This document shows positions 1,681 through 40,965 of a stretch of 40,965 bases of DNA, piece by piece. The number at the start of each line of letters is the position of its first letter. Within the stretch, counting starts at the first letter, position 1. The notes under the pieces were generated by a model that did not search any database, had not been told where the DNA came from, and saw only the letters and a program-made list of their open reading frames with translations. Position numbers and translations under genes: made by a program. The stretch covers positions 1 through 40,965 of IMG/VR virus record IMGVR_UViG_3300020442_001485, one strand, 5' to 3'. Origin of the DNA: a virus.

Positions 1681-4600
1681 ATGTCCTTGGATAAATTCGT
1701 CCAAAGAAAAGTTTACATGGTCACACTTGGAAAAGACGTTGACCTTAATGCGTTCTATGACGATATGGAAACTCCAGGAGGTAATTTATACATTCCTGAT
1801 CGTGCAGTAGATCTTGTTAATCGAAGACCAACATCAAGATCAACAGAATATTGGTTAACACAAAATGATGTTAACAATCTAAGAAATGATCCAAGAGTTA
1901 TAGCAGTAGAATTGAATCCTAAGGATTTAAATATTGAACCAGGATTAAATGCAACTGAAACAACAGGAACATTTGCAAGAAATGCCTCAGCCACAGCAAC
2001 AGATATTAACTGGGGCATCCTGCGTATGTGGGACGGTTATCTAAGAACAACGGCAACCACAGAAATTACAACCACAGTAAGTTGGAATCACACAGGTAGA
2101 AATGTAGACCTTGTTATCTGCGACGGTGATGGTATTGTGCCTAATCACCCAGAGTTTTTAGACAGTAACAATCAATCCAGAGTTGTACAGTATAATTGGT
2201 ATCAACATAATCCAGAAGTTACTGGTGGTAGTGCCGACACATACAGTTATGGTAATCCAGGCAGTTATCATGCAAATCACGTTATGGGTACAGCAGGTGG
2301 AAATCCAAATGGTTGGGCCAGAGATGCAAATCTATATAACATTTACTATTATGCAGGTGCTTTTGGTAACAATAACTTTCCATACGTAATGGATTATATC
2401 AGAGAATTTCATAGAACAAAATCAGACAATCCAGATACAGGAAGAAAAAATCCTACTGTGATTAATAACAGTTGGGGTATGAGTATCTTCCCCAACCAAT
2501 GGAGTTTCAGCAGTATTGATGCTGTTACTTACAGAGGCACAAGATTCACACCGACTGGTGACACTACTTACAATGGAACTTCTGGTGTGTTTACATCTGT
2601 TGATCTTTTGTCTAACTTTACTGCTGATCCAGAAAACATTACACAAAGAATAGAAACTACAGGCAGTGAAGGTGCACCTAATGGAGAGTTTTCAGGAACC
2701 TTGCCAACTGGTTGGTCAAGGACTGGTGGTGAAGTATCTCTATCTATAAACACTGCGCCATCAACAAGTTACACAATTAGGGTACAAGGTCCATCAACCA
2801 TTAACTGTACAAGCACAACTTCATCTCAAGGCTTATCAGGAATTTCCTATCTAACTTCAAAGATTTTTGTATTTGAATCAGATGGAACAACAGAAGTGAC
2901 AGCAACAGAAGATACACAGGAATCTGTTGATGGTGGACAGGTAAGTATTAGCCTGTCGGCAAACAGTGTAAATTTACCTAACAACGAAATATATCAAATA
3001 CGTTTTGATACTGCTCTTGTAGAAGCAAGTAGTCCAACAACTGCTATGACAGCCAGTGTGGTCATTACAAATTATCAGGCATCAGACGCCGCGGCTACTG
3101 TTACATCATTGGGAACTAATCAATCTATTCCAAGTGTGGCAACTCTTACTGCAAGTATAACACCTACAGTAGGTAGTAATGATGATGGTTATTGGTCTGT
3201 AAATTTACCATTTAACGTAAGTTTTCTTTCAACTAATTACTCAACGGTTCACATGGGTACTAACAGTTATCTTACATTTGGTAGTGGTTCAACAGTTTAT
3301 TACCAGATAGATGAAAACACTCCAGCAGTTCCTAAAATCATGGTCACAGCAGAAGATTGTTCATGTCAAAGAATTTACTACGGAGCAGAAGGCACAACTG
3401 GTTCAAGAACATTTAGATTAGTATATGAAGGTAGTACAGGTACATCAGGATCAGTAGGCAGTCCGACTGTAAGATATCAGTACACATTTTACGAAGCCAA
3501 CCCTAACAGAATAGATTTACTAATAGAAGATAATGCAAATAAACAAGTTGATGGTAGTTTCTCTAATGCAGAACTTAATGGTTGGGGCTTTATTTCAGGT
3601 GCACGTATTCCTGTGAGAGTAGCGGCTCTTGATGCAGATATCGAAGATGCAATCGATGAAGGATTAATATATATTGGTGCGGCAGGCAACGGTGCATGGA
3701 AACATGATGTGCCTGGAGGTGCTGATTGGGATAATACTTTTGAAATGGGTGGCAATACTTATTACTATATGCGTGGTACTTCTCCTACAGCAAATGATGA
3801 TACAGTAAATGGTACTTATGATATACCTAACATTTGTGTAGGTGCAACAGATACAGCATACACAAATAGTTTAGATAGAAAAGTTTACTTTAGTGACTGT
3901 GGTCCTGGAGTAGATATTTACGCACCAGGACATTATATACAAAGTCCACTTAACCCATCTGCACTTGGCGAAATTACAGATGCAAGAGATAGTAATTATC
4001 GTATTGGAAAAATATCAGGAACTTCAATGGCAAGTCCGCAGGTAGCAGGAATTGTAGCCTGTATGATGGAAGCATATCCACACTTCAAACAAGAACAAGT
4101 AAAAGAGTATCTACTAAAAACTTGGTCAGCACAGGATCAACTTTATGATGCTACTGCAACTGATATTCCTACAGATTCAGATGATTTACAAGGGTCACCA
4201 AATAATCACGCAAAATATCACCACGAAAGACCATTAGATGGTACACTGTTTCCTAAATCAAGATATACGCAGAGGCCTACAACAGGTGCTTTATTTCCAA
4301 GGCCAAAAAGAAGTATTATAAAAGGAAACCCAGAACCAGGATCAGCAGTTGAAGGTAATTCTTATAGTTTGACAGTAGGCGTTGTACCTAACAGTGCTTG
4401 GACTTTTTCAGGTTCAGATAGAAATGGCAGTGTAACTGGAAATAATCCAACAATTAATATTAACAGTGGTGACCAACTAACATTAATTGTAAATAATCCA
4501 GGATACCCAGGACATCCTATGTTTATTAAAACAACACAATCAGTTGGTACCGGAAATACAGTGCCAGGTGTAAGCAATAACGGCGGTCAAGTTGGTACTA

Positions 4601-8843: not shown

Positions 8844-9365
8844 ATGCTTATAAAAACTGACCCGAATGGTGTTCCTATATTCTCTAATAAGAATTTGATC
8901 GATATGATTTACACAGGTCATATTGATAAATGCCATGTGGTGTTATGCGATCCAAATGATGAAATAGAAAAATTTAATAGTGTATCAAAAGAGTTTGGTA
9001 ATAAAGAACTTAACAAATATATTCCAATTGATGTTGATAAAAAAGATTTTGATAATGTATGCCAGAGCGAATGGTTTATGCCACAGGAATACAAACAACT
9101 TAATGTAGAAGAACACATTATTAATAAGTGTGAAACTGAAGAACAAGTAAAACGTGCATATGAAGAATTGGAAGAATTTCACAAAAGGGATATGTATGAT
9201 TTACTACGTTATATGATTTATTTGGTTGATTATATGCGTGAAAATAATATAGTTTGGGGAGTTGGAAGAGGATCAAGTGTATCAAGTTTTGTATTATACT
9301 TAATTGGTGTACACAGAATTGATCCAATCCAGTATGACCTGGACTGGCGTGAGTTCCTTCGATAA
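8844..9365 (+). CDS. DnaE (Pol III alpha)-like fragment of unknown role
   Basis: The last 40 residues of this 173-residue protein resemble part of the bacterial replicative polymerase alpha subunit (DnaE): WGVGRGSSVSS (residues 138-148) followed by YLIGVHRIDPIQYDL and a final FLR, corresponding to DnaE GPGRGSA...YLLGIT.IDPL.Y.L.FERFL. The N-terminal 130 residues are charged and show no PHP domain. The catalytic aspartates of DnaE lie outside the segment, so polymerase activity is not expected. It may interact with DNA or the host replisome, which is inference. The stop codon lies inside the late promoter at 9361. No ribosome-binding site is visible. Confidence 0.6.
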   Translation: MLIKTDPNGVPIFSNKNLIDMIYTGHIDKCHVVLCDPNDEIEKFNSVSKEFGNKELNKYIPIDVDKKDFDNVCQSEWFMPQEYKQLNVEEHIINKCETEEQVKRAYEELEEFHKRDMYDLLRYMIYLVDYMRENNIVWGVGRGSSVSSFVLYLIGVHRIDPIQYDLDWREFLR

Positions 9366-9773: not shown

Positions 9774-10181
9774 ATGTCAACAATTAATCTAAATGCTATT
9801 AAAGGTGAAGTGAGACCTATACATGATAGGTTAATGGTTTCTGATATGGAATTTGGTGAAGTCACTACAAAGGGTGGTATTATCCTTCCAAGTGATGATG
9901 GTCAAACACATGGTGTCAAACCACGTTGGGCCAAGATAGTTTCTATCGGACACGAAAACAAAGACGACTACAAAGTAGGCGATTGGGTGTTAATTGAACA
10001 CGGTCGTTGGTCAAGAGGATTTGCAGTAGAAAATGAAGACGGAGAAACTAAAGTTCTTCGTACAGTAGATCCAAGTGGTGTGTTAGGCGTTTCAGATGAA
10101 GCACCAAATGATCTTGCTTATTATGGTGAGAGCATTGATTTAAGTCAACCTGCACACCGTCCTGAAGATTTTGTTAATTAA
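9774..10181 (+). CDS. GroES-like co-chaperonin (gp31-type)
   Basis: This 135-residue protein has the Cpn10 order: RPIHDRLMV at the start of the barrel (about residues 13-21), a mobile-loop region ending in GGIILPSDD (about 34-42), AKIVSIG, then YKVGDWVLIEHGRWSRG. It is longer than bacterial GroES (about 97 residues), with a C-terminal tail past residue 110. T4 gp31 replaces host GroES to fold the major capsid protein, and a similar capping of host GroEL is the likely role. It follows the preceding stop without a gap, and the late promoter at 9361 would serve both genes, consistent with use in capsid folding. Confidence 0.75.
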   Translation: MSTINLNAIKGEVRPIHDRLMVSDMEFGEVTTKGGIILPSDDGQTHGVKPRWAKIVSIGHENKDDYKVGDWVLIEHGRWSRGFAVENEDGETKVLRTVDPSGVLGVSDEAPNDLAYYGESIDLSQPAHRPEDFVN

Positions 10182-10196: not shown

Positions 10197-10607
10197 TTGT
10201 CAAACGTAGATCTTAACAAGTACAAAGAATTTGTACAAGAAGTAACTTCAAAAGAATCAAATAGCACTATGGTGCTTAATAATAAACTAATTGATTTAGA
10301 AAAAGAATCAGGTGTAAATGTAGCACTGCTAATGACAGGTGCTATTGGTATCGCAAGTGAAGGAGGCGAGTTTAGTGAAATTGTTAAAAAATGTATCTTC
10401 CAAGGTAAACCAATGGACGATGAAACTATATTTCATTGCAAACGAGAACTTGGTGACATTATGTGGTATTGGATTAATAGTTGCCGTGCTCTTGGGTTGG
10501 ATCCTAACGAAGTAGTTGCAGAAAACGTAAACAAACTTAAAGCCAGATATCCTGGAGGAGAGTTTGACGTACACTATTCAGAGAATAGAAAAGAAGGCGA
10601 CTTATAA
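10197..10607 (+). CDS. mazG: MazG-like nucleotide pyrophosphohydrolase
   Basis: The 136-residue all-helical protein has the MazG metal-binding pattern: Glu55, Glu58 and Glu61 (EGGEFSE), then Glu84 and Asp87 (ELGD), followed by the conserved C-terminal run VNKLKARYPGGEF. MazG enzymes hydrolyse (d)NTPs to monophosphates. Phage MazG proteins are thought to adjust nucleotide pools or alarmone signalling in the infected cell. Start is TTG 10197, chosen because the purine-rich AGAAGAAGAGG lies at suitable spacing and no ATG fits before the conserved part. It follows the GroES-like gene by 15 bases and abuts the next gene. Confidence 0.75.
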   Translation: MSNVDLNKYKEFVQEVTSKESNSTMVLNNKLIDLEKESGVNVALLMTGAIGIASEGGEFSEIVKKCIFQGKPMDDETIFHCKRELGDIMWYWINSCRALGLDPNEVVAENVNKLKARYPGGEFDVHYSENRKEGDL

Positions 10608-10608
10608 T

Positions 10609-10839
10609 ATGAATTTTGATGATGCAGATATCCGTAATGTGTACTATGTCATCAACGAACTAATTCAAAAAGAAGCACAAAAAAGCAAAGAACCTTTGAT
10701 TGTTGCATCAGCGGCCGTTGTATCAGCAATCCAAATCTATAAAGATCATTTGAATCCGGAAGAACTTCATACCATGCTTGATGATATTTTGGCATCAGCA
10801 AATTTAGATCTTCCACCAAATAAGAAAAGTATTCATTGA
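10609..10839 (+). CDS. Small conserved helical protein, unknown function
   Basis: This 76-residue protein starts at ATG 10609, one base after the mazG stop codon. An in-frame earlier start at 10564 would overlap mazG by 44 bases and is less likely. The protein looks helical (YYVINELIQKEAQKS, then SAAVVSAIQIYKDHLNPEEL) with no recognisable motif. It is probably translated together with mazG. Its TGA stop lies inside the -35 box of the clamp-loader promoter. Confidence 0.55.
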   Translation: MNFDDADIRNVYYVINELIQKEAQKSKEPLIVASAAVVSAIQIYKDHLNPEELHTMLDDILASANLDLPPNKKSIH

Positions 10840-10864
10840 CATCAACAAAAAAATAGTGTATATT
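10836..10864 (+). promoter_or_regulatory. Sigma70-like early promoter for the clamp loader operon
   Basis: TTGACA (10836-10841), 17-base spacer, TATATT (10859-10864). The predicted +1 is near 10871, followed by AAAGGAAG (10878-10885) and ATG 10892. The -35 box includes the stop codon of the preceding gene. Placement at the head of the replication/nucleotide operon fits early transcription by host RNA polymerase. Confidence 0.7.
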
Positions 10865-10891
10865 ATACATTATGAATAAAGGAAGTCTGAC

Positions 10892-11806
10892 ATGAAAGAA
10901 CTTTGGGTAGAAAAATATCGTCCTAATACAGTTGATGGTTACGTATTTAGAGATGAGCATCAAAAGAAACAAGTAAAACAATGGATCAAGGAAGGCACTA
11001 TTCCACATTTGTTGTTTAGTGGTAATGCAGGTATTGGTAAAACAACACTTGCAAAGATTTTGTTTAATGAACTTGAAATTAATGATTTAGATATACTTGA
11101 AATAAATGCAAGTAGAACAAACTCTGTAGAAGATGTAAGAGATAAAATTGTAAACTTTGTGCAAATGATTCCATTCGGTGATTTCAAAGTTGTGCTACTT
11201 GATGAGGCTGATTATCTAAGTCCAAACGCACAAGCGGCACTGCGTGGTGTAATGGAAGAATATCATACTACAAGTAGATTTATTTTAACTTGTAACTATC
11301 CAAACAGAATTATTCCTGCACTACATTCAAGATGTCAAGGCTTTCATATTGAACGTATTGATCAAACAGAATTTACTGCAAGGGTGGCACAAATCTTAAT
11401 TGATGAAGGTGTACAACCAGATCTTGATACACTTGATACATTTGTAAAAGCAACGTATCCAGACTTACGTAAATGCATTAACATGGTGCAGATGAATAGT
11501 GTAGATGGTGTATTACAAAAACCACAAGACGGGGATACAGGTGAAGCAGATTATAAACTTGAAATGGTTGAACTGTTTAAAGCAGGCAAAATTAATCAAG
11601 CAAGAAAACTTGTTTGTAGTCAAGTAAGGCCAGATGAAGTAGAAGATATCTACAAATGGCTTTATGACAATATCACTTTGTTTGGTGATGAAGAAAAACA
11701 AGACAATGCTATTCTAATTATTAAACAAGGACTTGTTGATCACACACTTGTTGCAGATCCAGAAATTAATTTGGCCGCAACCATGATTCGTTTAGCACGT
11801 CTATAA
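10892..11806 (+). CDS. 44: DNA polymerase clamp loader, large subunit (gp44-like AAA+ ATPase)
   Basis: The 304-residue protein has the RFC/clamp-loader AAA+ features in order: EKYRP (7-11), Walker [10 protein letters not shown] (44-52), Walker [10 protein letters not shown] (Asp104-Glu105) and the SRC arginine-finger motif (Ser146-Arg147-Cys148). T4 gp44 has 319 residues. It hydrolyses ATP to load the sliding clamp (probable gene at 37227) onto primed DNA for gp43. The partner subunit gp62 is not in this window. The gene heads an operon reaching to 14930 with its own early promoter and a strong ribosome-binding site. Confidence 0.92.
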
Positions 11807-11823
11807 ATTGGATACATATTAAT

Positions 11824-12186
11824 ATGACGTACCTTGTAAACGAAAACTGTATAAAATGCAAACACTTAGACTGCGTAGAAGTATGTCCTGTGGATTGCTT
11901 TTATGAAGGCGAGAATATGCTTGTAATCAATCCGGACGAATGTATTGATTGTGGAGTTTGTGAACCTGAGTGTCCTGTAAGTGCAATTATTTCTGACAAC
12001 GATCCTACGTCAGATTTTTGGTTAGAACATAATCGTGAATACAGTGGAAAGTGGCCTAATATTAATGTCAAAGATATTACCAATGTTCCAGAAGATGCCG
12101 AAGATTGGGCATTAGTTCCAAACAAATTTAAAGAGCATTTCTCTCCTGAACCAGGCGGGAAGAAAGATGGAAATAAAGAGACTTAG
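11824..12186 (+). CDS. fdxA: FdxA-type 7Fe ferredoxin
   Basis: This 120-residue protein matches the bacterial FdxA family over its whole length: [30 protein letters not shown] and a C-terminal KWPNI segment. Its nine cysteines (9, 12, 17, 21, 25, 40, 43, 46, 50) fall at the spacing known from Azotobacter ferredoxin I, shifted by one, which predicts one [3Fe-4S] and one [4Fe-4S] cluster. It is a cytoplasmic one-electron carrier, probably host-derived. It sits between clamp loader and parvulin genes in a nucleotide-metabolism operon, so it may feed host or phage reductases (inference). The ribosome-binding site is weak. Confidence 0.9.
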
Positions 12187-20040: not shown

Positions 20041-20886
20041 ATGGATTATTACGACTTATTAGGCGTATCACGAAACGCATCAGATTCAGAAATCAAAAAA
20101 GCATACAAAAAACAAAGTATGCAACACCATCCTGACCGTACCGGTGGTGACGATTCTAAATTCAAAGAAATAAATGAAGCCTATCAAGTTCTAAGTAATA
20201 AAGAAAAAAGGCAGATGTACGATCAATTCGGAACTGCTGATCCACAACAAGCAGGTTTCAATCCAAATAATATGGGCGGTCAATCATTCCATTTTAATAT
20301 GGGCCAAGGTGGTATGGAAGATATCTTTTCAACATTTTTTGGCAATGGTTTCCAACAACAAAGAAGACAACCACGTAACAGAGATATTACGATTGCTTGT
20401 GATATTACACTAAATGAAGTTTACACTGGTAAAGGTGTTATAGCAACATTTAGGACCAATACAGGTAAAGAACAAACTGTTAATATAGATATTCCAAAAG
20501 GTGTAAGACACGGAGACACAATCAATTATAGTGGTTTAGGTGACGATAGTATTCCAAATATGCCACGTGGTAACCTATTTGTTAAAGTAAGAATAAAACG
20601 TGATCCAAATTTTGAAAGAGATGGTTACCATTTACACACAACAGTTACAGTAAGTGTATTCGATTTGATGTTAGGCACAGCCACAAACCTAAGTTTGCCT
20701 AACGGAAGAACTATAAGTATTAACATACCACAAGGCACACAACCAGGCACAGTAATGAGTATTAATGGACAAGGCCTACCTGACTACAATTCCGGAACAT
20801 CTGGCAACGTTTATATGAGAATTAATGGTTTAATTCCTAAGAATTTGACCGAGGAACAAAAAGATATTATTAGAAAGTTAAAATGA
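20041..20886 (+). CDS. DnaJ/CbpA-type co-chaperone
   Basis: The 281-residue protein has an N-terminal J-domain (residues 2-62, HPD motif at 30-32), a Gly/Phe/Gln-rich linker (about 75-110) and the two C-terminal substrate-binding domains (RDITIACDITL near 116, then IPKGV, and IPQGTQPGT near 232). It lacks the zinc-finger CxxCxGxG repeats, so it is a class II (CbpA-like) protein. It would stimulate host DnaK. It begins an operon with peptide deformylase and clpA, sharing four bases with the next gene, and is driven by a perfect sigma70 promoter. Confidence 0.92.
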   Translation: MDYYDLLGVSRNASDSEIKKAYKKQSMQHHPDRTGGDDSKFKEINEAYQVLSNKEKRQMYDQFGTADPQQAGFNPNNMGGQSFHFNMGQGGMEDIFSTFFGNGFQQQRRQPRNRDITIACDITLNEVYTGKGVIATFRTNTGKEQTVNIDIPKGVRHGDTINYSGLGDDSIPNMPRGNLFVKVRIKRDPNFERDGYHLHTTVTVSVFDLMLGTATNLSLPNGRTISINIPQGTQPGTVMSINGQGLPDYNSGTSGNVYMRINGLIPKNLTEEQKDIIRKLK

Positions 20887-21404
20887 ATTTAGTTTATCAC
20901 CCAAACGACTGGTTAGATAAAAAGGTACAACCTTTTGATTTTGACAAGTTAGATGCAAAACAAATAGAAAAAGAAATGATTGAACTAATGACTGCTGAAC
21001 ACGGTGTTGGTTTGGCGGCTAACCAAGTAGGCATTGATGCACAAATATTTGTAATGGAGCCAAAGACCCTTGAAGGTTACAAAGAACCATTTGCAATTAT
21101 AAATCCAAAGATTGAAAAAGTATCAACGGAAACTATAGAAGGTGAAGAAGGCTGTTTAAGTTTTCCAGGTTTATATTTTAAGGTAAAACGTGCATCGGCT
21201 TTGGTTGCAAACTTTCTTGACTCTACAGGAAAAGAGTGTAATATAGAGTTTAAGGGTTGGGAAGCAAGAATATTCCAACACGAATTTGATCACTTACAAG
21301 GCATAAACTATATCGACAGAGTAAGTAAACTAAGATTAGATATGGCTCGTAAGAAACAAGCAAAATTATTAAAAAAGTATAAGGATATAATAAAATATGG
21401 TTGA
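20883..21404 (+). CDS. def: Peptide deformylase
   Basis: The 173-residue protein has all three deformylase motifs: GVGLAANQ (41-48), EEGCLS (Cys91) and HEFDH (133-137). It removes the formyl group from nascent protein N-termini. Phage deformylases are known from marine T4-like phages. It overlaps dnaJ by four bases (ATGA) and clpA by eight, so the three proteostasis genes are coupled. The C-terminal basic helix (KKQAKLLKKYKD) could contact the ribosome, as in bacterial deformylases. Confidence 0.93.
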   Translation: MNLVYHPNDWLDKKVQPFDFDKLDAKQIEKEMIELMTAEHGVGLAANQVGIDAQIFVMEPKTLEGYKEPFAIINPKIEKVSTETIEGEEGCLSFPGLYFKVKRASALVANFLDSTGKECNIEFKGWEARIFQHEFDHLQGINYIDRVSKLRLDMARKKQAKLLKKYKDIIKYG

Positions 21405-23646
21405 ACCAAGCGAAGAGTTACAAGCAGTATTTGATAAAGCGATTAATGATGCTAAAAAGTTGCGTCACGAGTATGTTACATTGGAGCATATTCTTTTTGC
21501 TATGCTTTGTTCAGAAAACTTCGTAAAAATTGTAGAAGGTGCAGGATCTAATCCTGATAACATTAAAAAGCAAATTGAAAACTATTTAAAGACTGAGTGT
21601 AGTGAATTATTAGTTGCAGAAGATGTTAAAAAATGGAAGCCTCGTAAAACTGCAACTGTTGAACGTGTATTGAACAGAGCATTTACGCAGGTATTATTCA
21701 GTGGTAGACATCATATTGAATGTACAGATGTATTTTTAAGCATCATGAGTGAGAAAAAATCTTGGTCGTTTTACCATATACAAAAAGAAGGTATTGACAA
21801 AACAAAATTTGCAGACTACTTAAACAATGAACTTGAAGCAACATTTGAAGATGAAGAAATGCGTAATATGTCGCAAAGGGCATTACGTGAATATTCAACA
21901 GATCTAAATCAAGAAGTTGAAAAGAATAAAGTAGATCCTGTAATTGGCCGTTCAGAAGAATTAGAAAGCATTGCTCTTGCATTAGGACGTAGAGCAAAAA
22001 ACAATGTATTACTTGTAGGTGACCCTGGTGTAGGTAAAACTGCTATTGCAGAAGGTCTTGCATTTAATATTGTTAATAAAGCAGTTCCAGAATTTTTACA
22101 AGAATACAAAGTTTACAATTTAGATATTCCTGCTATGTTGGCTGGGTCTAAATATAGAGGCGACTTTGAAGAACGTTTCAAACTTGTTATGAATGCAATT
22201 AAAAAACAAGGCAAAACTATTGTATTCATCGACGAAGCACATATGATTAATGGTGCTGGTGCAGGTGGTGGATCTAATCAAAGTAACGATCTTGCAAATA
22301 TGTTAAAGCCTGCCTTAGGTAAAGGAGATATCAAAGTTGTTGCAAGTACTACTTGGGAAGAATACAGAAAATACTTTGAAAAAGATCGTGCATTAATGCG
22401 TAGATTCCAAAGAGTAAGTGTATCAGAACCAAGTAAAGAAGTAACAAAAGATATTTTACGTGGTATTAAAAAATATTACGAAGATTATCATAAAACAGAA
22501 ATTACAGAAGAAGGTATTGATGCCGCAATCAAGATGAGTGTAAAATATATGGCAGATAAGAAATTGCCAGATAAAGCAATTGACTTGATCGATCTTGCTT
22601 GTTCACGTTTTAATCTGAAAAAAGTTGAAGGTGAAAAAGTAGTTGGCAAAGCAGAAATAGAATTTGAACTTGCAAAAGCAGTTAAGTTACCGCCGGAACA
22701 AGTATCACAAAAAGAATCAAGTAACCTTGCACACTTAGATGAAAATCTAAAACGTACAGTGTACGGACAGGACAAAGCAATTGAAGAAATTGTAGATAAA
22801 ATTCTTGTAGCACAGGCAGGTTTAAAAATTGAAAACAAGCCAATTGGTTCTTTTGTGTTTATGGGTCCAACTGGTGTAGGTAAAACAGAAACTGCAAGAT
22901 CACTTGCAAAAGAATTAGGTGTAGAACTTGTTAGATTTGATATGTCAGAGTATCAAGAAAAACATTCTGTATCTAAACTTATTGGTTCACCTCCAGGATA
23001 TGTAGGTTATGAGGAAAATGCAGGACTTTTGATAACAAAACTGCAAGAACATCCTAACTGTGTATTACTACTTGATGAAGTAGAGAAAGCACATCCAGAT
23101 GTTTCGCAAATTTTACTACAAATTATGGATAATGGAAGAGTTACCGGTAGCAACGGGAAAGAAGCCGATGCCAAGAATACAGTTTTAATCTTGACTACAA
23201 ACTTGGGTGCGGAGCAGGCAGAGAAAAATGCCATCGGCTTCAATGAAGATTTAGAAATGGACTACGAAGATACAGAACTTAAAAAGTTCTTTGCACCTGA
23301 ATTTAGAAATAGACTTGACGGTGTTATAGCATTTGGCAAACTTGAGAAGAATACTATGATTAAAATTGTTGGTAAATTCCTTGTTGAGTTACGTGATATG
23401 CTTAAAGAGAAAAAAGTTACTGTTACAATTACTGACGAAGCAATTGATTATCTTGTTGATGTTGGGTTTGATAAGAAAATGGGTGCAAGACCATTACAAC
23501 GTACTATTGATAAAGAAATCAAACGTGATTTAAGTAAGATATTACTGTTTGGTGAACTTAAAAATGGTGGCCATGTAAATATTGACGTCAAAGATAAGCA
23601 ACTTACATTAGAACCTAAAAAACAAGCAGAAACCGTAGAAGCATAA
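21397..23646 (+). CDS. clpA: ClpA-type AAA+ protease ATPase subunit
   Basis: The 749-residue protein is a full ClpA: N-domain (about 1-145), AAA-1 with Walker A GDPGVGKT (208-215) and FIDEAHM, and AAA-2 with Walker A GPTGVGKT (490-497), LLLDEVEKAH and the PEFRNRLD arginine-finger region. The ClpP-docking loop is retained (Ile613-Gly614-Phe615), so it should couple to host ClpP. No ClpP or ClpS is encoded in this window. A role in redirecting host proteolysis to phage needs, or in removing host or phage regulators, is inferred. E. coli ClpA has 758 residues. Confidence 0.93.
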   Translation: MVEPSEELQAVFDKAINDAKKLRHEYVTLEHILFAMLCSENFVKIVEGAGSNPDNIKKQIENYLKTECSELLVAEDVKKWKPRKTATVERVLNRAFTQVLFSGRHHIECTDVFLSIMSEKKSWSFYHIQKEGIDKTKFADYLNNELEATFEDEEMRNMSQRALREYSTDLNQEVEKNKVDPVIGRSEELESIALALGRRAKNNVLLVGDPGVGKTAIAEGLAFNIVNKAVPEFLQEYKVYNLDIPAMLAGSKYRGDFEERFKLVMNAIKKQGKTIVFIDEAHMINGAGAGGGSNQSNDLANMLKPALGKGDIKVVASTTWEEYRKYFEKDRALMRRFQRVSVSEPSKEVTKDILRGIKKYYEDYHKTEITEEGIDAAIKMSVKYMADKKLPDKAIDLIDLACSRFNLKKVEGEKVVGKAEIEFELAKAVKLPPEQVSQKESSNLAHLDENLKRTVYGQDKAIEEIVDKILVAQAGLKIENKPIGSFVFMGPTGVGKTETARSLAKELGVELVRFDMSEYQEKHSVSKLIGSPPGYVGYEENAGLLITKLQEHPNCVLLLDEVEKAHPDVSQILLQIMDNGRVTGSNGKEADAKNTVLILTTNLGAEQAEKNAIGFNEDLEMDYEDTELKKFFAPEFRNRLDGVIAFGKLEKNTMIKIVGKFLVELRDMLKEKKVTVTITDEAIDYLVDVGFDKKMGARPLQRTIDKEIKRDLSKILLFGELKNGGHVNIDVKDKQLTLEPKKQAETVEA

Positions 23647-32858: not shown

Positions 32859-32876
32859 AAAACGACTATTGGTATT

Positions 32877-32900
32877 TGCCAGCCCCAAATGGCATAGGAG
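32877..32900 (+). promoter_or_regulatory. Hairpin at polymerase ribosome-binding site, candidate gp43 translational operator
   Basis: TGCCA (32877-32881) pairs with TGGCA (32890-32894), giving a 5-bp stem with an 8-base loop (GCCCCAAA), one base before the Shine-Dalgarno AGGAG (32896-32900). T4 gp43 represses its own translation by binding a hairpin of the same stem and loop size next to its ribosome-binding site. The loop sequence differs from T4. Confidence 0.5.
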
Positions 32901-32905
32901 AGAAA

Positions 32906-35575
32906 ATGAGTTACGTAGACGCATACTTTGATCGAAACGCAGATATTATTCGCGTTGTCGAACGTAAAGACGGGAAGAGACAATATCATGATTATCCTGT
33001 CAAATACACTTTTTATTATGCAGACCCAAGAGGCAAATACAAAAGTATTAACGGTGAGCCTCTAAATAGAATTGTTTGTAAAAACACAAAAGACTTCCGC
33101 AAAGAATTAGCAATCAACAAAAATAAAGAACTATTTGAAAGTGATGTAAATCCAATCTTTCAGTGTTTGAGTGAAAACTATCTTAATCACGATGCTCCAA
33201 AACTAAACATTGCATTCTTTGATATTGAAACAGACTTCGATCCAGATAGGGGATTTGCAGATCCGAGTGATCCGTTTATGCCTATTACTGCTATTACAGT
33301 TCACTTGCAATGGCTTGACAGTCTTGTTACACTTGCAATACCACCTAAGACATTGACAATGGAAGAAGCACAAGAGCAAGTTAAAGAATTTCCTAATACA
33401 CATTTGTTTGCAGACGAAGGCGATATGCTAAAAACGTTTCTTGATTTAATTCAAGATGCAGATATTATAAGTGGTTGGAACAGTGAAGGTTATGATATTC
33501 CATATACAGTTAATCGTGTACAAAAAGTTTTAAGCAAAGATGATACAAGACGTTTTTGTTTGTTTGATCAGTTTCCTAAAAAACGTGAATATGAAAAATT
33601 TGGTAGAACACAAGAAACCTATGACCTAATAGGCAGAGTGCATTTAGATAGTTTAGAATTATATCGTAAATACACATATGAAGAAAGACACACATATCGA
33701 CTTGATGCCATTGGTGAAATGGAAGTTGGCGAACGTAAAACAGTTTATGAAGGTACCCTCGATCAACTTTATAACAATGACTTCAGAAAGTTCATTGAGT
33801 ACAACAGACAAGACGTTGCACTACTGGACAAGTTGGACAAAAAACTAAGATTTATTGATCTTAGTAACGAACTGGCTCACGCAAATACTGTTTTGCTACA
33901 GACCACAATGGGTGCTGTCGCAGTTACAGAACAAGCAATTATCAACGAATCACATCACAGAGGAATGCAAGTTCCTAACAGAATAAGACGAGAACCTGGT
34001 AGTGATCCAGCCGCAGGTGCTTATGTGGCATTTCCTAAAGTAGGAGTACATAAGTGGATTGGTTCAATGGACTTGAATTCACTGTATCCATCAGTAATTA
34101 GAGCATTGAACATGGCTCCAGAAACTATTGTAGGACAACTGCGTCCTGAACTTACAAACAAATATGTCGGTGAACAAATGAACTTGAAAAAGAAATCATT
34201 TGCATCTGCTTGGGAAGGTAAGTTTGGTACAATTGAATTCGAAGCAGTAATGGACGAACGTAGAGATGTTAGTATTACTGTTGATTGGGAGAATGGACAA
34301 TCTGATGTAATGAGTGGTGCACAAATTAGTAAAATTATCTTTGATAGTAATAATCCTTGGATGATAAGTGCTAATGGTACAATCTTTACATATGAGTTTG
34401 AAGGTATTATTCCTGGACTTCTTAAACGTTGGTACAGTGAACGTAAAGAAATGCAGGCTATGAAAAGAAAGGCTCTTGAAGCAAACAACAAAGCAGAGAT
34501 AGAGTTTTGGGATAAAAGACAACTTGTTAAAAAGATTAACCTAAATAGTTTGTATGGTGCTATCCTTAATCCAGGTTGTAGATTCTTTGACCCACGTATT
34601 GGACAATCAACTACACTTACTGGTAGACAGATTGCAAAACACATGGCCGCAGAAGTAAACAAAGTTGTTACAGGCGAATACAATCATGTAGGTAAAAGTA
34701 TTATTTACGGTGATACAGACTCTGTGTATTTTAGTGCATATCCATTGCTAAAGAAAGAAATTGAAGCAGGCAATCTTCCTTGGACTAAAGACAGTGTAAT
34801 TGAATTGTATGATAAAATTTGCGAAGAAGCAAATAAATCATTTGGTAAGTTTATGGGTGACACTTTCCATTGTCCTAAAACAAGAGCAGAAGTAATTGCG
34901 GCAGGTAGAGAAATTGTTGCTGAAAGTGGATTGTACATCACAAAGAAAAGATATGCCGCTTTAGTGTATGATGAAGAAGGCACAAGAAAAGATGTTGAAG
35001 GCAAGCCAGGCAAAGTAAAAGCAATGGGTCTTGATCTTAAACGTTCTGATACTCCAGTGTTTATGCAGGACTTCTTAAGCGAATTACTACTTAAGGTATT
35101 ACAAGAAGCAAGTGAAGATGAAATTCTTGATCGTATTACAGAATTTAGAACAGAGTTTAAGTCACGTCCTGGACATGAAAAAGGTTCGCCTAAACGTGCA
35201 AATAAAATTGGACACTATCAACGTCTTGAACAAAAGCAAGGCAAAGCAAATATGCCTGGACACGTAAGAGCAAGTATCAACTGGAACACACTTAAAAAGA
35301 TGAATGGTGATAGATATTCTCAAGAAATTGTTGATGGTATGAAAGTTATTGTTTGTAAACTAAAACAAAACCCAATGGGATATACAAGTGTTGCATATCC
35401 TGTAGATGAATTGCATTTGCCAGATTGGTTTAAAGAACTGCCATTTGATGGTGATGCTATGGAAGAAACAATTATTGACAATAAACTTGGCAACTTAATT
35501 GGTGTGCTTAATTATGATTTAGAAAGCACAAAAACAAAAAATACTTTTAATAACTTGTTTGACTTTGGAGAATAG
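32906..35575 (+). CDS. 43: DNA polymerase, family B (gp43-like), with 3'-5' exonuclease
   Basis: The 889-residue protein (T4 gp43 has 898) has exonuclease motifs FDIET (Asp106, Glu108), SGWNSEGYDIPY and YNRQDVALLD, then polymerase motifs DLNSLYPS (Asp389), KINLNSLYG (Asn547) and YGDTDS (Asp603, Asp605), plus KKRYAALVY. The C-terminal NNLFDFGE resembles the clamp-binding end of T4 gp43. I start it at ATG 32906 because AGGAG lies five bases before; the in-frame ATG 32876 falls before the putative operator hairpin. It is the replicative polymerase, working with gp44 and gp45. Confidence 0.96.
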   Translation: MSYVDAYFDRNADIIRVVERKDGKRQYHDYPVKYTFYYADPRGKYKSINGEPLNRIVCKNTKDFRKELAINKNKELFESDVNPIFQCLSENYLNHDAPKLNIAFFDIETDFDPDRGFADPSDPFMPITAITVHLQWLDSLVTLAIPPKTLTMEEAQEQVKEFPNTHLFADEGDMLKTFLDLIQDADIISGWNSEGYDIPYTVNRVQKVLSKDDTRRFCLFDQFPKKREYEKFGRTQETYDLIGRVHLDSLELYRKYTYEERHTYRLDAIGEMEVGERKTVYEGTLDQLYNNDFRKFIEYNRQDVALLDKLDKKLRFIDLSNELAHANTVLLQTTMGAVAVTEQAIINESHHRGMQVPNRIRREPGSDPAAGAYVAFPKVGVHKWIGSMDLNSLYPSVIRALNMAPETIVGQLRPELTNKYVGEQMNLKKKSFASAWEGKFGTIEFEAVMDERRDVSITVDWENGQSDVMSGAQISKIIFDSNNPWMISANGTIFTYEFEGIIPGLLKRWYSERKEMQAMKRKALEANNKAEIEFWDKRQLVKKINLNSLYGAILNPGCRFFDPRIGQSTTLTGRQIAKHMAAEVNKVVTGEYNHVGKSIIYGDTDSVYFSAYPLLKKEIEAGNLPWTKDSVIELYDKICEEANKSFGKFMGDTFHCPKTRAEVIAAGREIVAESGLYITKKRYAALVYDEEGTRKDVEGKPGKVKAMGLDLKRSDTPVFMQDFLSELLLKVLQEASEDEILDRITEFRTEFKSRPGHEKGSPKRANKIGHYQRLEQKQGKANMPGHVRASINWNTLKKMNGDRYSQEIVDGMKVIVCKLKQNPMGYTSVAYPVDELHLPDWFKELPFDGDAMEETIIDNKLGNLIGVLNYDLESTKTKNTFNNLFDFGE

Positions 35576-37226: not shown

Positions 37227-37955
37227 ATGAAAGACATTTTACAAGACATTGTTGCCCATACACACTCGTTAGGGTTTCTAAACATTGTTAAAGTAACTAA
37301 CGAAGCAGATACTACTATCGAATCAATGGCAGAAGATAGAAGTGTTATTCTTAGTTCTAAAACTAAAAACCCTGTGCAGGAATTTTCAGGCACATTTGGT
37401 ATGCCTAACTTAGACAAGTTAGCATTGCATTTAAAATGCCCAGAGTATCAAAAGAATGCAAAAGTATCTGTTGAGACAGCAGATAGAAACGGTGAAACTG
37501 TGCCAACACATATTCACTTTGAAAACGAAGCAGGTGATTTTGAAAACGATTATCGCTTTATGAATAAACAAATTATTGATGAGAAACTTAAAACTGTGAA
37601 GTTTAAAGGTGCTAACTGGGACGTAACTGTTGAGCCAACTATGGCGGCAATTCAAAGAATGAAGTTCCAGAGTCTTGCACACTCAGAAGAAACTGTGTTT
37701 TCAGTAAAAACTGAAGGCGGCAATCTTGTATTTGCATTTGGTGATGCATCACAACACGCAGGTTCATTTGTGTTCCATGCAGGTGTTACAGGTGATCTTA
37801 AACACACTTGGGCGTGGCCAGTTGCACAGGTACAAGCAATTTTAAACTTAGATGGTAAGGTTACAATGAGCATTTCAGATCAAGGTGCTATGCAACTTAC
37901 TGTCGACAGCGGGTTGGCAGAATATAATTACATTCTTCCAGCACAAACAAAATAG
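37227..37955 (+). CDS. 45: Probable DNA polymerase sliding clamp (gp45-like)
   Basis: The 242-residue protein is close in size to T4 gp45 (228). It has repeated beta-alpha-beta patterns, KFKGANWDVTVEPTMAAIQRMKF in the middle and the ending YNYILPAQTK that I recall from the clamp-annotated family of marine T4-like phages. Sequence similarity to T4 gp45 itself is low, so the call depends on family memory, size, fold-like pattern and a strong early promoter. It would encircle DNA and tether gp43; at late times T4 gp45 also activates late transcription. Confidence 0.6.
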   Translation: MKDILQDIVAHTHSLGFLNIVKVTNEADTTIESMAEDRSVILSSKTKNPVQEFSGTFGMPNLDKLALHLKCPEYQKNAKVSVETADRNGETVPTHIHFENEAGDFENDYRFMNKQIIDEKLKTVKFKGANWDVTVEPTMAAIQRMKFQSLAHSEETVFSVKTEGGNLVFAFGDASQHAGSFVFHAGVTGDLKHTWAWPVAQVQAILNLDGKVTMSISDQGAMQLTVDSGLAEYNYILPAQTK

Positions 37956-37962
37956 GAGATGT

Positions 37963-38160
37963 ATGACAAGTGTTGATGAAAGAGACAGTGATGCTACTTG
38001 GGAAAATGAACAAAGTATGGTTACAATTCCCCTAAAGGAGTATGACAAACTTCGTGAAAAACAAAAATATATTACTGATAGAGATATGATTGCAGTAATA
38101 GATAAAATCGAAGAACTTGTAAGAGCACTTAGAAAACATATAATAAGATCGGATATTTAA
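37963..38160 (+). CDS. Small coiled-coil protein, unknown function
   Basis: I start this 65-residue protein at ATG 37963 because TAGGAG precedes it at the right distance; the longer in-frame ORF from 37885 overlaps the clamp gene. It is charged and helical (LKEYDKLREKQKYI, VIDKIEELVRALRKHI), suggesting a short coiled coil. It is presumably co-transcribed with the clamp. No named family. Confidence 0.55.
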   Translation: MTSVDERDSDATWENEQSMVTIPLKEYDKLREKQKYITDRDMIAVIDKIEELVRALRKHIIRSDI

Positions 38161-38171
38161 GAGGTGAATAA

Positions 38172-39632
38172 GTGAATACAGACTTAACAAAAGAACAAAA
38201 AGACTACGCAATATTCCTTCCGGCAATTAGCGGATTCTTTGCAACCTTTATAGGTAAGCAAAGACGTGAGGAGTATGTAGAATACAGTCGTATTCCTACA
38301 CATTTTACAAATGGTGTAGAAAGTATGAATTGGCTTGAACCAAGTAAGTCTTTGTTTAATTACAAATGGAGTTTGTATTCGGCAGGTCATGCCGACTTGG
38401 ATATCCATAAAGACAGTCCTAAAGAAGATATGGTTCGCGACAGAGATCGTAATAACAGTTGGCTACTTGGCGACTCAGGTGGTTTCCAAATTGGTAAAGG
38501 TGTTTGGGAAGGTGACTGGAAAGATCCTAATTGTCCTAAAGCAAAAAAGAAACGTGAACAAGTTCTTGCATGGATGGACGAATATATGGACTATGGAATG
38601 ATTCTTGATATTCCGGCATGGGTATCAAGATCAGAAGCAGGTCAAAAAGCAACTGGTATTAGCACATATCAAGAGGCTGTAAATGCAACAAGAATAAACA
38701 ATGATTACTTTATGCAGAACAGAAGTGGTGCTTGTAAATTCTTAAACGTGTTACAAGGTGAAAATCATGCTGATGCAGAAGATTGGTATCAGCAAATGAA
38801 GGACTATTGTGATCCTAAAAAATATCCTGACACACATTTTAATGGTTGGTCGATGGGTGGTCAGAATATGTGTGATATACACCTTGCACTAAAAAGACTT
38901 GTTGCACTACGTTTTGATGGCTTATTAGAAAAAGGTTTACATGACTTTATGCACTTCTTAGGTACAAGTAAATTAGAGTGGGCAACACTACTAACTGATG
39001 TACAAAGAGCAGTTCGTAAACATCACAACGAAAACTTTACAATTACATTTGATTGTGCTTCACCGTTCTTAGCAACTGCTAATGGACAAATTTATTGTGA
39101 ACTTGAAACAGGTGATAGAAAGAAATGGGTATATCGAATGGTGCCAAGTATTGATGATAAGGCACTTGCAACAGATACAACTGCGTTTGCTGATGCGTTT
39201 GTAAGAGAAGGCAAGCACAGAAGTTTCTTAGATAGTCCTATTACAAAAGGTTTAACTGCAAAAGATGTTTGCATTTATGCTCCAGGTGACCTAAATAAAA
39301 TAGGTAAAGAAGGTAAAACATCTTGGGATAGTTTTAGTTATGCTATTCAGATGGGACATAATGTATGGAGTCATATCAATGCAGTACAACAAGGCAACAA
39401 AAGATATGATGAAGGTATCATTCCTGATATGCTTGTAGAAGAACGTTTTGACAGATTATACTTTAGAGATATTGTTGAAGCCATTTTTGCTACAAGTAAT
39501 AGAGATGAAGCAAATGCAGTTATAGAAGAATTCAGTAAGTACTGGATGTCAATTATTGGGACACGTGGTGCAACAGGTAAAAAGACAGTAAATGCACAGA
39601 CCCAATTTACAAACTTATTTGAGGAGGCGTAA
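38172..39632 (+). CDS. tRNA-guanine transglycosylase-like protein, candidate DpdA (DNA deazaguanine transglycosylase)
   Basis: The 486-residue protein starts at GTG 38172 (GAGGTG upstream). It has the TGT core: LLGDSGGFQ with Asp101 (Z. mobilis TGT Asp102), Asp146 in LDIPAW, FLNVLQGE (TGT VQGG), NGWSMGGQ (TGT G.A.GGL), FLGTSKLEW and the nucleophile-like Asp294 in TFDCASPF (TGT FDCV.PTR). The usual CxCxxC zinc motif is not visible. Phage TGT paralogues of the DpdA type exchange guanine in DNA for a 7-deazaguanine, which blocks restriction. No preQ0 synthesis gene is evident here. A tRNA target remains possible. Confidence 0.7.
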   Translation: MNTDLTKEQKDYAIFLPAISGFFATFIGKQRREEYVEYSRIPTHFTNGVESMNWLEPSKSLFNYKWSLYSAGHADLDIHKDSPKEDMVRDRDRNNSWLLGDSGGFQIGKGVWEGDWKDPNCPKAKKKREQVLAWMDEYMDYGMILDIPAWVSRSEAGQKATGISTYQEAVNATRINNDYFMQNRSGACKFLNVLQGENHADAEDWYQQMKDYCDPKKYPDTHFNGWSMGGQNMCDIHLALKRLVALRFDGLLEKGLHDFMHFLGTSKLEWATLLTDVQRAVRKHHNENFTITFDCASPFLATANGQIYCELETGDRKKWVYRMVPSIDDKALATDTTAFADAFVREGKHRSFLDSPITKGLTAKDVCIYAPGDLNKIGKEGKTSWDSFSYAIQMGHNVWSHINAVQQGNKRYDEGIIPDMLVEERFDRLYFRDIVEAIFATSNRDEANAVIEEFSKYWMSIIGTRGATGKKTVNAQTQFTNLFEEA

Positions 39633-39826
39633 TGACCAAAGCGAGTAAGAAACTTAAAAAACTAAAAGAAAGTCATGCTTGGTATGACAAGAAAGTAAAC
39701 GAACTTGAAGAAGAAAGACAACACGATCGTACGTTTACACATAAATCTTTATTACTAAAATTAAAGAAAACAAAATTAGCAATTAAAGATCAAATCAATC
39801 AAATGTTCAAGGAGCAAAAACAGTGA
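39632..39826 (+). CDS. YdcH-like small coiled-coil protein
   Basis: The 64-residue product is a charged helical hairpin (KLKKLKESHAWYDKKVNELEEE, then LLLKLKKTKLAIKDQINQM), resembling the YdcH/DUF465 family (L.KKEKL.LKD.I near the end). Its ATG overlaps the previous TAA (TAATG), and it overlaps the next gene by four bases. Coupling to the transglycosylase-like gene may mean related function, but this is weak. Confidence 0.6.
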   Translation: MTKASKKLKKLKESHAWYDKKVNELEEERQHDRTFTHKSLLLKLKKTKLAIKDQINQMFKEQKQ

Positions 39827-40335
39827 AACGTGATTACTCAGATGGAGTAAAAAATGATGTAGTATTCTTCACAGGTTATGAAGTTGAAAAAACTCCAGCC
39901 TATGATATGGATACTTTATTTGTTGTAGGTTTGCAACCTTTAGATAAAGTGTTAGACAAAGCAGAAGAAACGCATTGTGAACACATTTATCTTGGTGCAA
40001 ATCAAAGTTTTATGCCAGCAGAAGAATGGGACGATTTGATTAATCCTTTGCTTGATAGAGGTTACACTGTAACACTTGATTATGATGTAAGATATCATGA
40101 ATGGGTACTTGAAAGTGGCTATAATGAAAAGAACAACTTTATTAGCCAAATTAGTGTAAAACTTCCTTACATAGATCAATTAAACTATAATGCTTGTATC
40201 AAAATCGATGACAAAGATTTTAAAGCAACTAATCCTGGTGTTTGGATTCATCAGGTGCATGATTTACAAGAACGTTCAAAGTTTACAGATTGGTCCAAAT
40301 ATGAAGAAGATAATGTGGTTGACAAAGCGAAGTAA
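39823..40335 (+). CDS. Conserved phage protein of unknown function
   Basis: The 170-residue protein starts at GTG 39823 with AAGGAG nearby. It has RDYSDGVKNDVVFFTGYEVEKTPAYD (3-28), LFVVGLQP, HIYLGANQSFMP (about 55-66) and NPGVWIHQVHDLQER (about 137-151), a pattern I recall from marine T4-like phages next to the transglycosylase-like gene. It appears alpha/beta with many aromatic and acidic residues. If the pairing is conserved, it may be an accessory to the modification enzyme (inference). Confidence 0.6.
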   Translation: MKRDYSDGVKNDVVFFTGYEVEKTPAYDMDTLFVVGLQPLDKVLDKAEETHCEHIYLGANQSFMPAEEWDDLINPLLDRGYTVTLDYDVRYHEWVLESGYNEKNNFISQISVKLPYIDQLNYNACIKIDDKDFKATNPGVWIHQVHDLQERSKFTDWSKYEEDNVVDKAK

Positions 40336-40347
40336 AGGTAGTATATT

Positions 40348-40788
40348 ATGAGTATAACAGATAGGTTAATAAAAGAACAAATGGAAATAGACAATAAGGC
40401 AAGAGTTATGAACACTGCAAAAAGAATGATTTGGGTTACTTTTAGGAAAGAAGGTATCCACAAATATCCGGCGGCATTAGAAGATCCTAATCTCGCTACA
40501 GGTGACGAATATGATGTGTCTTTCTTAGGTTATCCACACAGACATATTTTTCATTTTAAAGTTGGTATCACTGTAACACACAATGACAGAGATATTGAAT
40601 TTATTCAGTTTAAACGTTGGTTAGAAAAACTTTATGAGGAGAAGACATTAGAGTTAGATTATAAAAGTTGTGAAATGATGAGCGATGATCTTTACGCAAA
40701 GATCAACGAGAAATACCCTGGTCGTGAAGTACACATTGACGTTAGTGAAGACGGCGAAAATGGTGCTCACATTGAATATTACAAATAG
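40348..40788 (+). CDS. Conserved phage protein with a PTPS/QueD-like pattern
   Basis: This 146-residue protein has a pattern reminiscent of the 6-pyruvoyl-tetrahydropterin synthase/QueD fold: HRHIFHFKV (about 64-72; family HGH.Y.V.V), IEFIQFKRWLEKL (family V[DE]F..LK), CEMMSDDLYAKI (family PT.EN.A..I) and VHIDVSEDG (family V.V.ET). One of the three zinc histidines is not clearly present, so an active QueD is doubtful. It lies downstream of the transglycosylase-like gene, and QueD acts in deazaguanine synthesis, which is why the likeness is noted. Confidence 0.4.
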   Translation: MSITDRLIKEQMEIDNKARVMNTAKRMIWVTFRKEGIHKYPAALEDPNLATGDEYDVSFLGYPHRHIFHFKVGITVTHNDRDIEFIQFKRWLEKLYEEKTLELDYKSCEMMSDDLYAKINEKYPGREVHIDVSEDGENGAHIEYYK

Positions 40789-40799
40789 GAGATTTTGTA

Positions 40800-40965
40800 A
40801 TGCAACTTGGCAAGTATTTTGCTGAACACCCGGAACAGGTGCAGATCTTTGAAGATCTTGAAAAGTTTAAAGAGTTCTGTTCTAAGTCTTGGGTGCTTGG
40901 TTATAGTAGATCTTTTAAGTTTGATGAAAAAGATCTTTATAACAATAAGAGCGAAGCATGGCGTA
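40800..40965 (+). CDS. N-terminal part of a hypothetical protein (runs off the window)
   Basis: TAGGAG precedes ATG 40800, and the frame is open for 55 codons to the right edge. The visible part (QLGKYFAEHPEQVQIFEDLEKF...) is helical with an aromatic middle (SWVLGYSRSF). Too little for identification. Confidence 0.55.
   Translation, partial: MQLGKYFAEHPEQVQIFEDLEKFKEFCSKSWVLGYSRSFKFDEKDLYNNKSEAWR

Follow-up and report, generated by a model that had tools for sequence, protein, structure and literature searches.

Does the gene at positions 38172–39632 of this viral DNA (the window, a stretch of 40,965 nucleotides analyzed as a whole) encode an enzyme that exchanges guanines in phage DNA, or one that acts on tRNA? 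An initial annotation made from the sequence read its product as a paralog of tRNA-guanine transglycosylase (TGT) resembling the DpdA proteins, in a phage genome. The phage origin is well founded: the sequence is a fragment from the IMG/VR virus collection, and the genes around that of the transglycosylase include those for DNA polymerase B and for tail, clamp and chaperone proteins. The DpdA-like reading is supported by a clade of its own, by a TGT fold with a full catalytic set, and by folE and queE genes in a contig with 97% DNA identity to the right end of the window. We are accordingly rather confident that the gene encodes a DpdA-type DNA transglycosylase of a separate subfamily, with DNA as the presumed target and a deazaguanine as the presumed base.

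The Transglycosylase Gene and Its Active Site

The 486 residue product of ORF 38172–39632 (plus strand) begins with a GTG start codon preceded by AGAGGTG, a ribosome-binding-type sequence. Scans against Pfam, NCBIfam and PHROG returned nothing significant for this protein, and a sequence search of the PDB returned no TGT; the family scans are uninformative here, since the DpdA of phage 9g and the DpdA2 of Vibrio phage nt-1 likewise miss the Pfam TGT model. An AlphaFold2 model, for which the input was 52 sequences (the window protein and those of fetched loci), had a pLDDT of 89 and a pTM of 0.88, and all 50 of the 50 PDB matches listed by Foldseek for this model were to tRNA-guanine transglycosylases, the best having an E-value of 9e-7. 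VIA-align superimposed the model on T. maritima TGT over 304 residues (Z 18.9, rmsd 4.3), and matches in a viral structure library included the Achromobacter phage Motura TGT (1.6e-12) and nt-1 DpdA2 (4.4e-11).

The motifs on which the initial annotation was built, DSGGFQ (D101), VLQGE (Q195), SMGGQ (G229-G230) and FDC (D294), were all found in the protein. None of D101, D146, Q195, G230 and D294 varies among 52 relatives (G229 is present in 51/52), so these motifs are not due to chance. D146, which was absent from the earlier motif list, is the counterpart of TGT Asp156, and in a profile alignment the invariant residues pair with the DSGG, FDE, QG and GG residues and the FDC nucleophile of E. 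coli TGT. As modeled, the protein thus shows a TGT fold with a complete base-exchange active site. The CxCxxC zinc site, which the annotation had described as not visible, is indeed missing: a complete C.C..C is present in 0/209 family members, the three zinc cysteines being reduced to one (C367, kept in 51/52 relatives), while the counterpart of the zinc-site histidine, H396-N397, is kept in 52/52.

A further difference concerns Arg286 and Arg289 in the PTRxxR segment of Z. mobilis TGT, which hold the bases next to G34 and contact the anticodon. Both arginines are present in 5/5 tRNA TGTs compared; their equivalents in the window protein are L300 and A303, and in 0/52 relatives are these positions arginine, which argues against tRNA as the substrate. 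Compared with bacterial TGT, the window protein therefore has the fold and the catalytic Asp/Asp/Gln/Asp set in common, but it has neither the set of zinc cysteines nor the PTR-type arginines, and at 486 vs. ~375 residues it carries insertions and an additional acidic, clamp-like tail.

Relatives and Phylogeny

A scan of IMG/VR matched at least 600 stretches, and 599 of those listed encode a relative of the transglycosylase. Among cultured phages, the PA5oct group carries homologs with 35% identity, Sinorhizobium phage Phosso one with 28%, and Vibrio phage 2.275.O one with 32% across a portion of the protein; the subfamily spans these phages together with large marine and freshwater phages. 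Searches for related loci with the PA5oct and Vibrio 2.275.O homologs as queries found none. One contig of 335 kb (L093, PBPT01000016.1), binned as a Neomarinimicrobiota MAG, has a gene 80% identical to the transglycosylase; this contig is probably a jumbo-phage genome, a hint at genome size and at a possible host.

In a maximum-likelihood tree, a phylogeny of the kind proposed in the initial annotation (archaeal TGT being represented among the structure matches only), the window protein did not cluster with the tRNA TGTs, a grouping that the annotation had named as evidence against its reading. It formed a clade of its own with the PA5oct, Phosso and Vibrio 2.275.O homologs (100/99), the other groups being tRNA TGT (100/100), DpdA2 (100/98), DpdA1 (100/100) and GR7B-type proteins (100/100), with their deep order unsettled. 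The DpdA2 clade occupies one side of its 100/98 branch and the window protein lies outside it. Profile comparisons of the window family by hhalign gave E-values of 7e-14 with the GR7B group, 2e-7 with DpdA2 and 5e-4 with TGT, and no significant match to DpdA1. For DpdA3 and DpdA4, the DpdA of Campylobacter phages and haloviruses, the search covered CP220 and a 12-kb region of HVTV-1, and in these we saw no DSGG-type ORF or significant match. By sequence comparison, then, the window protein has its nearest relations in the GR7B-type group and in DpdA2, and may be called DpdA-like in a broad sense, outside each of the subfamilies testable here (tRNA TGT, DpdA1 and DpdA2).

The nearest experimentally characterized subfamily by profile is that of nt-1 DpdA2 (YP_008125322), which is also high in the viral structure list and which, like the window protein, is a phage-encoded TGT-fold protein without CxCxxC. 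However, a BLASTP search gave no match between the two proteins, nt-1 DpdA2 has DSGGLQ where the window family has DSGG[FY]Q, it has no counterpart to the FxxLF tail described below, and its gene is linked to folE, queC and queD, whereas the window relatives are without an ordinary QueC. The insertion of 7-deazaguanine into DNA is established for the DpdA1 of Enterobacteria phage 9g. DpdA1 proteins are shorter (~317 vs. 486 residues) and form a separate clade, with no profile similarity detectable between 9g DpdA and the window protein; their genes in 9g, Seurat, JY38 and R31B adjoin a beta-clamp gene or lie one short gene away from it, an arrangement comparable to that in the window. The GR7B-type TGT-domain proteins (Vibrio GR7B, Pseudomonas Illi-2 and Xanthomonas PhiXhv-12), which give the best profile match of any family beyond the clade, differ from the window family in keeping CxCxxC and in having a Lys-rich tail without FxxLF. 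Proteins of this other, unassigned transglycosylase group, with the zinc cysteines and Lys-rich tails, are encoded at L085:7608–9224, L086:5857–7227 and L087:5566–7272. Within the clade of the window protein, the PA5oct/Paride-type Pseudomonas phage homolog EST35_0316 has an FNSLFD tail and is annotated only as a hypothetical protein, in a phage that has been cultured.

A Sliding Clamp Gene and a Clamp-Binding-Like Tail

At 37227–37955 (plus strand) lies a gene for a 242 residue protein that had no Pfam match; its AlphaFold2 model (pLDDT 93) has the PCNA/gp45 sliding clamp fold, and all 50 of the 50 PDB matches listed by Foldseek were PCNA-type clamps or clamp complexes (best E-value 4.6e-11). 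In 196/198 loci this clamp gene is located directly 5' of the transglycosylase gene, the two being separated by a median of 12 bp. Residues 465–486 of the transglycosylase, its last 22 (39564–39629, plus strand), are disordered in the model (pLDDT < 50) and end in QTQFTNLFEEA. This clamp-binding-like peptide, TQFTNLFEEA, resembles the tail NTFNNLFDFGE of the family B, gp43-like DNA polymerase encoded at 32876–35575 (plus strand; Pfam DNA_pol_B 2.6e-32), the end of which is KNTFNNLFDFGE. In T4, the polymerase, gp55 and gp33 have similar, interchangeable C-termini with which they attach to the gp45 clamp (PMC2988020), and a short hydrophobic/acidic C-terminal motif of this T4-type, polymerase-like kind is present on the transglycosylase. 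Together, the adjacent clamp gene and the polymerase-like tail suggest clamp-tethered base exchange: by analogy, the tail would, like that of the polymerase, bind the neighboring phage clamp, and exchange would then take place on newly replicated phage DNA, a proposal toward which we lean.

It is also conceivable, if in our judgment doubtful, that the FxxLF tail binds another partner, or that it is common to the polymerase by chance or recombination. Clamp binding is here read from sequence likeness, and the tail is not universal: the strict motif is missing in about one quarter of family members, mostly in one subgroup, the relaxed motif is missing in 13/53 members of group C, and FxxLF was not found in the GR7B-type homologs or nt-1 DpdA2. 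The distribution of the motif nevertheless sits poorly with coincidence. Within the last 25 residues, [FYLM]xxLF[DEG] occurs in 2/56 window ORFs, those of the polymerase and the transglycosylase only, and in 1/113 background gene families; it is present in 84/120 distinct transglycosylase tails, against 0.56 expected after shuffling, and has no occurrence in the transglycosylase protein bodies, although these counts take in related sequences and so are not independent events. A relaxed motif is present on both the polymerase and transglycosylase tails in 174/188 loci, and the two tails are alike phage by phage, e.g., HFDSLFGW and SFNSLFDV in PA5oct, and NNTDLFDW and NNNDLFGW in Vibrio 2.275.O. 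Among the known DpdA proteins, LF lies within the last four residues in 5/5 DpdA1 proteins examined, and in 2/5 DpdA2 proteins (ACP17 and Moby) a single residue follows a near-terminal LF; no such LF end is present in tRNA TGTs, GR7B-type proteins or nt-1 DpdA2. In the open-licence literature we found no paper linking DpdA with a sliding clamp; an earlier mention elsewhere is possible.

Genes for Deazaguanine Synthesis

A DNA transglycosylase would need a supply of deazaguanine, and the initial annotation had pointed to folE, queD, queE and queC as the genes to look for in the rest of the genome. None of the queuosine-pathway genes was found among the 40 window ORFs scanned with Pfam; the window ends 1.3 kb past the transglycosylase gene. 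Contig L001, which has 97% DNA identity to window positions 37261–40965, encodes beyond the window edge FolE (10282–10968; Pfam 1.4e-38) and then QueE (11152–12048), ~8 kb 3' of the transglycosylase gene. The best NCBIfam matches of this QueE are all to QueE, yet they are far under the cut-offs. In relatives, this contig among them, the transglycosylase is thus encoded together with genes for deazaguanine synthesis, which lie outside the window.

Among the 112 relatives whose sequence extends 9.5 kb or more 3' of the transglycosylase, FolE is encoded within 10 kb downstream in 108 and QueE in 54, in every case on the same strand as the transglycosylase gene; in 14 large contigs QueE was found in 14/14 and FolE in 13/14. 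A xanthine/guanine-type phosphoribosyltransferase lies between the transglycosylase and folE/queE in 93/112 relatives (L001:7349–7921), and a YhhQ precursor transporter scoring above an NCBIfam cut-off was found in 29/112. Two genes immediately downstream in the window, to which no function was assigned, are each conserved in 111/112 of these relatives with the full downstream region: 39823–40335 (plus strand, 170 residues) and 40348–40788 (plus strand, 146 residues, phrog_17812). In L001 an aminotransferase class-III gene (3067–4302) is inserted between the counterparts of two neighboring window genes (40313/40342).

QueD was found in some relatives only and is divergent. The QueD-type proteins of L116, L117, L118, L119 and L290 have CxxxHGY where CxxxHGH is usual, and may be an altered QueD or another enzyme. 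We recognized no ordinary copy of QueC and no QueF in the relatives, two weak QueF matches being located inside FolE genes. The genes at L111:1030–1731, L270:1471–2106 (minus strand) and L271:1060–1695 encode divergent PP-loop proteins whose C-terminal cysteine cluster resembles that of QueC, the PP-loop genes of L270 and L271 being adjoined by oxygenase-like genes; we rejected these proteins as QueC, as their matches were weak or to the C-terminal end and far below the NCBIfam cut-offs, and QueC-like singletons are known not to be reliable. The complete PA5oct genome encodes FolE, two QueD-type proteins and QueE, and has no QueC and no QueF. A tblastn search with QueE gave matches in only 134/50,697 phage records, the groups named being Vibrio, Pseudomonas, Stenotrophomonas, Campylobacter and Cellulophaga phages, a halovirus and some others; not named were phages of Klebsiella and Escherichia, to which the polymerase relatives RaK2 and 121Q belong.

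With QueD patchy and divergent and an ordinary QueC absent, the pathway may be partial, and FolE alone would be compatible with folate synthesis, a point against the DNA-modification reading. A partial pathway also leaves room for a DpdA homolog that, for want of precursor, is idle or very weakly active in many hosts, and there are precedents in Mycobacterium phage Orion, which has a DpdA and unmodified DNA, and in Salmonella phage 7-11, which modifies only ~0.02% of G (PMC6884629). The keeping of FolE near the gene in 108/112 relatives and of QueE in 14/14 large contigs speaks against this, as selection seems to maintain the precursor supply, and we consider an idle enzyme improbable. Marginally less credible still is a tRNA-guanine transglycosylase acting on host or phage tRNA in a queuosine-type tuning of translation: the fold and catalytic residues are identical to those of TGT, and FolE, QueE and YhhQ would supply queuosine too, but the protein lies outside the tRNA-TGT clade, has lost CxCxxC and has the Arg286/Arg289 equivalents replaced in 52/52, the window has no tRNA gene, and the gene neighbors are a clamp and a polymerase whose clamp-binding tail its own resembles.

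A Possible Role in DNA Modification

The window phage, of a marine jumbo type, has an enzyme that probably swaps DNA guanines for a restriction-resistant modified base. In the mechanism that we propose, a guanine of the phage DNA would be attacked by Asp294 at its glycosidic bond and would leave, its position then being filled by free 7-deazaguanine produced from GTP (by FolE, QueD and QueE); 7-deazaguanine in the phage DNA would block restriction enzymes. The absence of an ordinary QueC points to a carboxy-deazaguanine-type base or a derivative, or to preQ0 that the host helps to supply, through its QueC or through the YhhQ importer of some relatives, and the released guanine may be salvaged by the neighboring phosphoribosyltransferase. 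For the window phage, we infer both the protection from restriction and the identity of the base. A broader proposal, on which we are evenly divided, is that this subfamily, perhaps along with DpdA1 and part of DpdA2, is tethered to the clamp by a polymerase-mimic peptide, making exchange replication-coupled and confined to phage DNA, and that the window subfamily uses a carboxy-deazaguanine-type base without QueC and recycles guanine through the neighboring phosphoribosyltransferase.

For phages of the window type, a deazaguanine synthesis and incorporation system had already been noted in PA5oct by a review (PMC7824862). What we consider new is first and foremost the clamp-binding-like tail of a protein encoded next to a clamp, and in addition the separate and very abundant subfamily and the apparent absence of QueC. 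DpdA enzymes are known to insert deazaguanines into DNA, but we found no account of how they select phage DNA, and a tail that binds the clamp would, if true, be a simple answer: the enzyme may ride the ring that marks replicating DNA and swap bases during copying. With such a tail encoded beside a clamp gene, how DpdA finds phage DNA becomes testable, and PA5oct, Paride and 9g are cultured carriers in which the clamp idea could be examined. Given the abundance of the subfamily (599 relatives among at least 600 stretches), deazaguanine DNA may be common in large aquatic phages, which would affect both restriction and sequencing.

Other Genes of the Window

Some further genes of the window are of interest in their own right. 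A 173 residue protein (8844–9365) has a match to DNA polymerase III alpha (PF07733) that is confined to the start of the latter, the phage itself having a family B polymerase, and Phosso has a short counterpart annotated as DnaE-like. A Cpn10-like gene is located at 9774–10181, and a cluster at 20041–23646 encodes DnaJ, peptide deformylase and a ClpA-type ATPase.
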